Shown: positions 18,720-27,156 of the stretch, one piece after another
Position numbering within the stretch: position 1 is the stretch's first letter
Layout of the letters: each line of letters opens with the position of its first letter
From: Faecalibacterium prausnitzii
GTDB taxonomy: Bacteria > Bacillota > Clostridia > Oscillospirales > Ruminococcaceae
Assembly: GCF_003324185.1 (NCBI RefSeq)
Contig: NZ_PXUP01000006.1
Location: 62,001-126,000, forward strand
Reading direction: 5' to 3'
Length of the DNA: 64,000 nt
Program-made: the position numbers and the translations under genes
Notes under the pieces: generated by a model
What the model saw: only the letters and a program-made list of their open reading frames with translations
Databases searched by the model: none
What the model was told of the DNA's origin: nothing

Positions 18720-18748
18720 TTGACAGAAGCGGCAGTTTCTGGTATCAA
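18720..18748 (+). promoter_or_regulatory. Promoter of the oadB-like gene
   Basis: Perfect TTGACA (18720-18725), 17-base spacer, TATCAA (18743-18748). It drives a leader of about 190 bases. Confidence 0.85.
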
Positions 18749-18755
18749 TAAAAAA

Positions 18756-18871
18756 GATAAAGGGGAGTAAAGGGCAGCCCGCCGGTCAAGGCTTTTTCCG
18801 GCAGGCCGCTGCATGGCAGCGTCATCACGGCAGCAATGCCCGATGTCATGTGTTCGCTTGAGACTTTTGTC
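18756..18871 (+). ncRNA. yybP-ykoY (manganese) riboswitch candidate
   Basis: The leader starts GATAAAGGGGAGTAA and closes with CTTGAGACTTTTGTC; the first bases can pair with CTTTTGTC to form P1, and GGGGAGTA and GAGAC match what I recall of the conserved yybP-ykoY core, as does GTCATCACGG in the middle. The 3' P1 strand is also the 5' arm of the terminator at 18860-18907, so ligand binding would favour read-through. The same layout recurs at 27044-27148. Class assignment is from memory of the consensus. Confidence 0.7.
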
Positions 18872-18907
18872 ACAGATCTTACGCTGTGGCAAGGGTCTCT
18901 TTTTTTC
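18860..18907 (+). terminator. Riboswitch expression-platform terminator
   Basis: A 16-bp stem with wobble pairs, GAGACTTTTGTCACAG / CTGTGGCAAGGGTCTC (18860-18875, 18884-18899), followed by eight Ts. It lies 40 bases before the oadB-like start and overlaps the riboswitch P1 strand. Confidence 0.9.
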
Positions 18908-18946
18908 TTGCCGCAGCATCAAAACAAAAGGAGGCAGGAAAACATT

Positions 18947-20077
18947 ATGAATTTCTGGAACACATTCGCCGCGCTCTTTTCAAACTTCGGGGCGCTGACA
19001 TGGCAGATGGTGGTCATGTGGGGCATCGGTGCCCTGCTCATTTACCTTGCCATCGTCAAAAAGATGGAGCCCAGTCTGCTGCTGCCCATGGGGTTCGGCG
19101 CCATTCTGGTCAATCTTCCCGCATCCGGCGCCATCACGCAGGGAGACACCGTTGGCCCCATCTCTGCCCTGTTCGAGGCAGGGATGTCCAACGAGCTGTT
19201 CCCGCTGCTGCTGTTCATCGGCATCGGTGCCATGATCGATTTTGGCCCGCTGCTGGAAAAGCCGTGGCTCATGCTGTTTGGCGCAGCGGCACAGTTCGGC
19301 ATCTTTTTCACCCTGTTTCTGGCCGGGTTCTTCTTTGATATGAAGGACGCCGCGTCCATTGCGGTCATCGGCGCAGCGGACGGCCCCACCGCCATTTTTG
19401 TGGCAAACACCCTGAAATCCCAGTATCTGGGCGCTATTATGGTGGCAGCTTACAGCTACATGGCGCTGGTGCCCATCGTGCAGCCGCCGGTCATCCGTCT
19501 GCTGACCACCCAGAAGGAACGCCGCATCCGTATGCCCTACGAAAAAGGCAATGTCACCCAGCTGACCAAGATCCTGTTCCCTGTTGTGGTCACGGTGGTC
19601 GCCGGTCTGGTAGCCCCGGCCAGCGTGGCGCTGGTGGGCTTTTTGATGTTCGGCAACCTGCTGCGGGAATGCGGGGTGCTGAACTCCCTGAGCGAGACCG
19701 CCCAGAACGTACTGGCAAACCTCATCACCCTGCTGCTGGGTCTGACCGTAGCCGGGCAGATGACCGCCGACAAGTTTGTCCGGCCGGACACTTTGCTCAT
19801 CATGGCGCTGGGTCTTGTAGCCTTTATCTTTGATACCGCTGGCGGCGTGCTGTTCGCCAAGCTGGTGAACCTCTTCCTGCCCGAGGGCAAAAAGCTGAAC
19901 CCCATGATCGGCGCGGCAGGCATCTCGGCCTTCCCCATGAGCGGACGCGTGGTCAACAAGATGGGTCTGGCCGAGGACAACCAGAATTTCCTACTGATGT
20001 ATTCCATCAGCGTCAACGTTTCCGGGCAGATCGCATCCGTCCTTGCCGGCGGACTGATCCTTTCCCTGATGGCTTAA
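18947..20077 (+). CDS. Sodium-ion-translocating decarboxylase beta-subunit homologue (OadB/GcdB)
   Basis: Integral membrane protein of the OadB/GcdB/MmdB family, which couples decarboxylation to sodium export. The 376-residue protein has many hydrophobic segments, AVIGAADGPTAIFVANTL near residue 143 with the Asp known to be essential in OadB, and GAAGISAFPMSGRVVNKMG near 325, the second conserved ion-site region. The start at 18947 follows AAAGGAGG. No alpha (carboxyltransferase) or biotin-carrier gene is near; only a tiny gamma-like ORF follows. With a probable manganese riboswitch upstream, a role in ion export without a decarboxylase partner is possible. Confidence 0.85.
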   Translation: MNFWNTFAALFSNFGALTWQMVVMWGIGALLIYLAIVKKMEPSLLLPMGFGAILVNLPASGAITQGDTVGPISALFEAGMSNELFPLLLFIGIGAMIDFGPLLEKPWLMLFGAAAQFGIFFTLFLAGFFFDMKDAASIAVIGAADGPTAIFVANTLKSQYLGAIMVAAYSYMALVPIVQPPVIRLLTTQKERRIRMPYEKGNVTQLTKILFPVVVTVVAGLVAPASVALVGFLMFGNLLRECGVLNSLSETAQNVLANLITLLLGLTVAGQMTADKFVRPDTLLIMALGLVAFIFDTAGGVLFAKLVNLFLPEGKKLNPMIGAAGISAFPMSGRVVNKMGLAEDNQNFLLMYSISVNVSGQIASVLAGGLILSLMA

Positions 20078-20090
20078 CGGAGGTGCCTTT

Positions 20091-20219
20091 ATGCTTCATC
20101 TTTCTTCCTGGATGACCACTCTGCCCATGATGCTCATCGGCATGACCGGTATCCTGCTGGTCATCGGCTTTCTCGTGCTGGTGGTGATGGCGCTGAACTG
20201 CCTCACCCGCCGCAAGTAA
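20091..20219 (+). CDS. 42-residue membrane protein, possible minimal OadG (gamma subunit)
   Basis: Begins ATGCTTCATC at 20091, only 13 bases after the oadB-like stop, with ACGGAGG seven bases upstream. The product has a short N-terminus, one hydrophobic helix (about residues 13-37) and a basic end (LTRRK). OadG subunits are single-span proteins that assemble with OadB, but are usually longer (about 80 residues), so this may be a reduced gamma subunit or an unrelated micropeptide partner. A terminator follows, so it is the last cistron. Confidence 0.75.
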   Translation: MLHLSSWMTTLPMMLIGMTGILLVIGFLVLVVMALNCLTRRK

Positions 20220-20240
20220 AAGAAAAAAATAGGATAAGCA

Positions 20241-20284
20241 AGCCGCCTGGGAGGATCTGCGGATCTTCCCTGGCGGCTTTTTTC
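20241..20284 (+). terminator. Terminator of the oadB-like operon
   Basis: Stem AGCCGCCTGGGAGGATC / GATCTTCCCTGGCGGCT (20241-20278, with a mismatched centre) followed by TTTTTT. Confidence 0.9.
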
Positions 20285-27001: not shown

Positions 27002-27055
27002 AAAAAAGACCTTTATCACATCCTGCCCGGAACGGGGAAATGTGATAAAAGTCTC
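27002..27055 (-). terminator. Riboswitch expression-platform terminator before the exchanger gene
   Basis: On the minus strand AGACTTTTATCACAT pairs with ATGTGATAAAGGTCT (with wobble), followed by TTTTTTA. The 5' arm includes the CTTTTATC that also closes riboswitch P1. Confidence 0.85.
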
Positions 27056-27148
27056 AAGCATCGGTACTGCATCGGGCATCTCTGCCGGGTCTGTCGCTGC
27101 AGCACAGCGCACTTTTTTACAAAGGTACGCCCCTTACTCCCTTTTATC
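27044..27148 (-). ncRNA. yybP-ykoY (manganese) riboswitch candidate
   Basis: On the minus strand GATAAAAG (27141-27148) pairs perfectly with CTTTTATC (27044-27051) to form P1. Between them are GGGAGTAA, a CCCGGCAGAGATGCCCGATG block and GCTTGAGAC. These elements line up with the leader at 18756-18871 (GGGGAGTAA, CGGCAGCAATGCCCGATG, GCTTGAGAC), so both are members of one RNA class. It lies between promoter 27157-27185 and the exchanger gene. Confidence 0.75.
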
Positions 27149-27156
27149 CAGAGGGT

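Follow-up and report, generated by a model that had tools for sequence, protein, structure and literature searches.

A leader RNA, very probably of the yybP-ykoY class, in front of an orphan OadB and a mini-gamma gene in Faecalibacterium prausnitzii

Introduction

Why does a gene for OadB, a beta subunit from a family known from Na+-pumping decarboxylases, stand in Faecalibacterium prausnitzii behind a leader that resembles a manganese riboswitch, together with an open reading frame (ORF) of 42 codons? The locus lies in a stretch of 64,000 nucleotides (nt) of contig NZ_PXUP01000006.1 (positions 62,001 to 126,000, forward strand), hereafter called the window. A first-pass annotation made from the letters of this DNA had proposed that OadB and the short peptide form a stand-alone ion exporter under Mn2+ control. 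Following up this proposal by covariance modelling, profile searches and comparison across genomes, we give roughly even chances to the reading that an Mn2+ ON-switch acting through a terminator controls an OadB/mini-gamma cation pump module, powered by OadA, in the Mn2+ response. If this holds, a protein family known from Na+-pumping decarboxylases would take part in the metal homeostasis of common gut anaerobes, and both the ion moved by the window-type beta subunit and its need for OadA become testable questions.

Results

Comparison with other species bears out the leader at 18755-18873 as a genuine, conserved element (Table 1). We built a covariance model, R1, from 30 of the 41 OadB leaders extracted from other species, leaving out the window, its two closest relatives, near copies and locus L091; matches of R1 to its 30 training leaders are expected, because it was trained on them. 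The covariation score of these 30 leaders reached 0.480 compared with 0.201 in shuffles, with 0 of 500 shuffles as high, and pairing over the whole structure was present in 82.4% of cells, compared with 65.7% in shuffled and 38-50% in slid alignments. Within the P1.2 helix, all 30 leaders pair columns 16-122 and 17-121, using several pair types, and 22/30 pair columns 18-120. Invariant columns number 23, among them AGGGAGTA, the CGTCA of loop L3 (CGUCA in the RNA, 30/30) and AGACTTT. The leader motifs that had first drawn attention to the locus are in place, with GATAAAGGGGAGTAA at 18756-18770 and GCTTGAGACTTTTGTC at 18856-18871.

The leader is related to the yybP-ykoY RNAs. An internal loop L1, formed by GGGGAGUA and GAGAC, lies between P1.1 and P1.2, and the leader shares with yybP-ykoY and alx RNAs not only these two strands but also an L3 of the form CGUCAnnACG and the P1.1 switch helix, as far as these are described in PMC6754395. 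GGGGAGTA is common to the window L1 and the Escherichia coli alx and mntP leaders, and the core strings of alx (CAAAGGGGAGTAAC, CGTCATTACGA and GTGAGACCTTG) are nearly equal to those of the window (TAAAGGGGAGTAAA, CGTCATCACGG and TTGAGACTTTT). The adenosine whose N7 contacts Mn2+, reported in the same source as A41 in the Lactococcus lactis and A48 in the Xanthomonas oryzae yybP-ykoY RNA, has its counterpart in A18824, which is invariant in 30/30 leaders. Furthermore, R1 recovered 13 of the 15 loci that RF00080, the Rfam model, had first taken (27.8-43.5 bits); translations read by eye place at least five of these loci before MntP and one before a P-type ATPase. The leaders matched by R1 also include those of CaCA exchangers and GDT1. 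These likenesses make it very probable that the leader is a yybP-ykoY-class riboswitch with an alx-type aptamer lacking P4, as the first-pass annotation had supposed for a metal riboswitch of this type. Since the leader is homologous to validated Mn2+ switches, Mn2+ is, with good though lesser confidence, its predicted ligand.

The leader differs from yybP-ykoY and alx RNAs in two respects: no P4 of the four-way junction seen in the crystal structures was found in the window aptamer, and RF00080 does not see it. Because P4 is missing, we file the leader as a yybP-ykoY variant and not as a standard member. The MntP leader L001 also has no P4 by eye, yet RF00080 finds it (23.9 bits, below cut-off); P4-like hairpins were recognized by eye in L072, L077, L086 and L088, while most aligned OadB leaders show none. 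The check first proposed for this locus, a search with RF00080, gave no match in the window leader at E<=10, and the model exceeded its cut-off in 0/80 genomes. It likewise gave no match at E<=1 on the E. coli alx leader (L279 2373-2504), which is Mn2+-responsive and responds to alkaline pH as well (PMC9603457, as far as that report was available), and it scored the E. coli mntP leader at 41.6 bits, below its cut-off of 45. Its silence on the window leader therefore says little and is not valid as a refutation; after its failure on alx, a known Mn2+ riboswitch, we dropped RF00080 as arbiter of class. The model thus misses the alx-type branch of Mn2+ riboswitches, and Mn2+ regulons are therefore probably under-annotated.

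Folded alone, the aptamer forms P1.1, and the downstream stretch alone forms a terminator of 16 pairs from 18860 (-24.8 kcal/mol, z -6.1; 0/200 shuffles equally stable). Because both use the same strand, P1.1 and the terminator compete, which bears out the earlier description of a strong terminator overlapping the helix that closes the aptamer. The arrangement is widespread among relatives: in 38/41 of their leaders at least 6 of the 9 nt of GAGACUUUU are paired as the 5' arm of a terminator followed by a T run. The promoter described as consensus stood in part. TTGACA is present, the -10 element is weak, and the scan that listed the terminator at 18860-18899 did not list this promoter; in 23/41 relatives' leaders a -10-like hexamer (at least 5/6 match) starts 21-23 nt before GGGAGTA.

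Table 1 Features of the OadB locus and of the second riboswitch in the window
Feature	Position	Strand	Details
Putative promoter	18720..18748	+	TTGACA 18720-18725, 17-nt spacer, weak -10 TATCAA 18743-18748; read from sequence
Riboswitch aptamer, very probably yybP-ykoY type, no P4 seen	18755..18873	+	R1 64.3 bits, E 1.9e-14
P1.1 switch helix, 5' strand	18756..18763	+	pairs with 18864-18871; present in the minimum free energy (MFE) fold of the aptamer alone
L1, 5' side GGGAGTA, preceded by G18762	18763..18769	+	invariant in 30 aligned leaders
P1.2, 5' strand AAG	18770..18772	+	pairs with 18857-18859 (CUU)
P3 arm with L3 CGUCAUCACGG (18820-18830)	18812..18850	+	expected Mn2+-ligand adenosine A18824
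Intrinsic terminator	18860..18899	+	5' arm contains P1.1 3' strand (18864-18871); T run follows
OadB, orphan subfamily, 376 amino acids (aa)	18947..20077 including stop (coding 18947-20074)	+	profile matches
Mini-OadG, 42 aa, one transmembrane (TM) helix	20091..20219	+	GGAGG 7 nt before ATG
Operon terminator	20240..20279	+	folding, z -5.7
Second riboswitch	27042..27149	-	R1 58.7 bits, E 5.8e-13
Sodium/calcium-exchanger (CaCA) family gene, 319 aa	26001..26960	-	PF01699 (Na_Ca_ex) 206.4 bits

The two genes behind the leader were likewise read correctly at the outset, an OadB homologue and a 42-codon one-helix ORF with a good ribosome binding site, followed by a terminator. The former has the fold of OadB and of the NaT-DC beta subunits, matches the family profiles over their cut-offs (Pfam OAD_beta 483.6 bits, TIGR01109 407 bits) and agrees in each of its 376 residues with the OadB of Faecalibacterium sp. 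I4-1-79 (100% identity). In a tree of 61 of 101 rows, comprising the window, the even-numbered loci and all 21 canonical OadBs, it falls into a distinct clade, apart from canonical OadB, with 100/100 support. Compared with canonical OadB (Salmonella Typhimurium, PDB 6iww), 33 columns are at least 90% conserved within each group yet different between them, one of these being a gap in the canonical group; the motif PMAAR is changed to PMSGR or PMSAR, and NVAGVIGSA to NVSGQIASV. Window-type OadB shares its riboswitch class with the Mn exporters found under yybP-ykoY control (MntP, P-type ATPase, GDT1/UPF0016 and the CaCA protein BP3410) and belongs to none of these families. The lists of Mn exporter families in the available parts of two reviews (PMC9334652, PMC9936198) do not include OadB, and we did not meet OadB as a yybP-ykoY target in the open-licence literature searched; an earlier mention in the two yybP-ykoY papers of 2015 is possible. 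A short OAD_beta-like match with one stop occurs elsewhere in the same genome (L005, contig C52, 88096-88395; 35.6 bits).

The association of leader and gene is recurrent. Among 80 OadB loci (the best 80 of 408; L041-L120), 43 have an R1 match directly before OadB, 30 of them training leaders and 13 not, and so do 20/29 further loci, some of the same species, compared with 0/21 loci of canonical OadB. The relatives at L054, L057, L060, L062, L064, L067, L069-L071 and L073 are without an R1 match, though close. Across 297 genomes of the family, in which the R1 matches and the OadB matches listed number at least about 150 each, 57 of the 150 R1 matches listed are followed by a listed OadB within 400 nt. 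The other 93, with downstream genes identified by phmmer comparison with four reference proteins, precede a P-type ATPase (37), MntP (17), CaCA (15) or an OadB at a contig end (1), and the remainder precede unclassified ORFs (21, one of which is GDT1/UPF0016) or no ORF (2). The window itself carries a second riboswitch, and the start of the CaCA gene follows that aptamer by 81 nt; its L3 is CGACAGACCCGG, not CGUCA. At L107 (4701-7250) a single riboswitch heads a run of CaCA, OadB and mini-gamma genes, the one locus of 80 at which the CaCA profile was found near OadB; in the window the two lie about 6 kb apart. Queries with MntP, P-type ATPase, ArsB-like, NptA-like and UPF0016 proteins found none in the flanks examined around OadB loci, and conserved gene neighbours were set aside as an argument.

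An OadG-like peptide of 36-86 aa (median 45) follows OadB in 79/80 loci. It shares with the OadG gamma subunit one N-terminal TM helix and a gene that adjoins OadB, and differs from it in lacking the linker and the OadA-binding segment, as these are described in PMC7145394 to the extent seen; the window copy is too short to hold the AP linker and C-terminal segment of OadG. The earlier idea of a minimal gamma-like peptide thus holds for the conserved ORF, whereas the window copy stays below the cut-offs of the OadG profiles (TIGR01195 10.3 against 36.05 bits; NF040909, OadG_rel_small, 11.9 against 25), as does the best of six relatives' peptides tried with NF040909 (23.6 bits). OadB and mini-gamma presumably form a complex.

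Does this module come with an alpha subunit? It is true of the neighbourhood that no OadA or biotin carrier gene is nearby, as the first-pass annotation had noted; elsewhere in the genome, the search it had called for found both. The OadA and biotin carrier profiles have a single match apiece, in either case on contig C24 and not on C62, the contig of the window, and a second, canonical OadB with an OadG of 118 aa is encoded on C35; biotin carboxylase gave no match in this genome. OadA was found in 75/80 and 48/50 genomes with window-type OadB, in two genome sets of which the second corresponds to 50 of the 80 loci (the species of the genome set, G, and of L041-L120 overlap), so that the stand-alone exporter was not borne out as stated. 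In ten tested genomes window-type OadB is the only OadB among the matches listed; eight of them have OadA, in all eight beside or fused to the biotin carrier, two of the eight (G109 and G163) have the riboswitch at OadB, and G048 and G215 are the two without OadA. A tie between such beta-only genomes and lack of the riboswitch was considered and set aside as not significant (3/12 versus 54/110, hand-counted denominators, p 0.14).

OadA and the biotin carboxyl carrier protein (BCCP) lie within 6 kb of OadB at 8/80 loci, 0/8 of which have the riboswitch. At seven loci they precede OadB in the same orientation, five of the seven being labelled Erysipelotrichaceae. At L116, the one OadA-linked locus whose gene order was read, the order is phosphoenolpyruvate carboxykinase-like, OadA, an 89-aa OadG-like ORF, BCCP, biotin-ligase-like, OadB and mini-gamma, with the carboxykinase, OadG-like and ligase names given by eye. 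Seven OadA-linked members of the subfamily, which form one lineage, keep D145, Y169, N318, S327, S332, R334, N357, S359 and Q361; at eight further columns they depart from the OadBs that have the riboswitch. Because these members have the same main-site residues, we rejected the argument that substitutions at the ion site prove a new ion.

Discussion

The competition between P1.1 and the terminator suggests how the switch would work. Since Mn2+ stabilises P1.1 in yybP-ykoY RNAs (PMC6754395, in the part available), we infer that the leader is ON in Mn2+. At low Mn2+, the terminator would form with GAGACUUUU as its 5' arm, and RNA synthesis would end before OadB; at high Mn2+, L1 and L3 would dock around the ion, P1.1 would form and sequester GAGACUUUU, and OadB and mini-gamma would be transcribed. 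The two proteins may then make up the membrane portion of a pump or exporter for cations, which would help, together with MntP and the exchanger encoded in the window, to cope with excess Mn2+. Energy would most likely come from OadA and the biotin carrier, whose genes lie elsewhere; Mn2+ would thereby supply a shared alpha with an alternative beta/mini-gamma module, the alpha itself being outside riboswitch control, because R1 has no match at its locus. Direction of control, coupling to OadA and the ion moved are predictions. That the OadB module belongs to metal defence we hold to be somewhat probable, judging from the genes that share its riboswitch; this co-regulated set lends partial support to the exporter under Mn2+ control claimed initially, in which transport itself is a prediction. 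The module that Mn2+ would induce may either draw on OadA or do without it, and we weigh the shared alpha somewhat above the stand-alone form. We regard it as a tentative possibility that OadB and mini-gamma represent a new exporter family for Mn2+ or divalent cations, driven by decarboxylation with a shared OadA or else acting as a stand-alone elevator exporter. In its boldest form, Mn2+ would swap the beta subunit on a shared OadA and biotin carrier to yield a decarboxylation-driven Mn2+ pump.

Several observations weigh against an OadA-powered, Mn2+-switched module. At the level of the RNA, the window aptamer alone shows no unusual stability (z -1.22), its MFE fold has a local hairpin in place of the lower P3, and R1 scores the two E. 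coli leaders at 15.2 and 14.5 bits (E 0.035 and 0.055, filters off), these being nonetheless the top two of the 13 rows in that search. At the level of the complex, the segment of OadD/OadG that binds OadA is missing in mini-gamma (PMC7145394), and R1 has no match in the C24 OadA locus or the C35 OadB locus of the same genome. Riboswitch and nearby OadA are mutually exclusive (0/43 versus 8/37, p 0.0013, from counts compiled by hand from separate locus lists). Finally, OadA was not found in seven genomes (G182, G130, G066, G048, G215 and those of L094 and L100), six of which, all but G215, have the riboswitch at OadB. Several of these genomes are incomplete; those of L094 and L100 measure 1.2-1.3 Mb. 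G048, 96% complete, has no other OadB among the matches listed, and the biotin carrier that matches best there is close to a biotin carboxylase.

The OadA-less genomes and the mutual exclusivity lead to the alternative that OadB and mini-gamma do without OadA and, at high Mn2+, move Mn2+ (or a different cation) out of the cell as a secondary antiporter of the elevator type. We consider this possible, at well below even chances, in view of the presence of OadA in nearly all genomes with window-type OadB, where the seven exceptions may be incomplete assemblies, of the eight genomes that keep OadA and biotin carrier with no other OadB among the matches listed, and of the main ion-site residues (the set from D145 to Q361) shared with the seven OadA-linked OadBs of one lineage. 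A further alternative concerns the signal: the switch may sense another divalent ion, e.g., Ca2+ or Mg2+, or alkaline pH, with OadB as an ordinary Na+ pump subunit under that stress. The L3 type divides by target gene, which counts against Mn2+ as the common signal, since type A is found in 40/41 OadB, 28/38 P-type ATPase (three more are close) and 11/15 CaCA leaders and in 0/22 MntP leaders, where 5 of the 22 MntP labels and 1 of the 38 P-type ATPase labels were assigned from translations by eye; the one GDT1 leader has the MntP type. In addition, some yybP variants are expected to sense other divalent ions (PMC7266159, in the part available), and alx responds to alkaline pH too. We nevertheless judge this alternative unlikely, because alx itself has an L3 of type A and yet responds to Mn2+ (PMC9603457), and the Mn2+-contacting adenosine is invariant. 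The split makes it testable whether one L3 type has another ligand.

A last alternative is an Na+ riboswitch of the DUF1646 motif, which is known before some oxaloacetate decarboxylase genes (PMC9337991, from the portion seen). This explanation we rejected as highly improbable: no Rfam family matches the window leader at E<=10, no DUF1646 match occurs in 16 OadB loci at E<=1, and the DUF1646 architecture of two extended helices, P1 and P2, described in the same source is unlike the window leader. An Mn2+ ON-switch over an OadA-powered OadB/mini-gamma module remains the reading we prefer.

Other genes associated with the riboswitch

The division of L3 into two types was read from the rows of alignment A2, which was fitted to R1 and whose pair counts therefore lean towards the modelled structure, and from L001, L123, L124, L128, L134 and the MntP rows of L214-L254. 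The X. oryzae L3, ACAUACU (PMC6754395, as far as available), resembles the MntP type. Riboswitches with an L3 of the MntP type also precede TetR-type-looking ORFs (L206, L227 and L230, by eye). Type A riboswitches stand before His/Gly-rich ORFs of 94-99 aa, possibly metal-binding, at L187, L212 and L217. Other riboswitches were found before ORFs that by eye look like the ArsB/NhaD type (L165, L168, L172, L177, L201 and L225) and before membrane ORFs that by eye look like the Na/Pi-cotransporter type (L169, L197 and L211).
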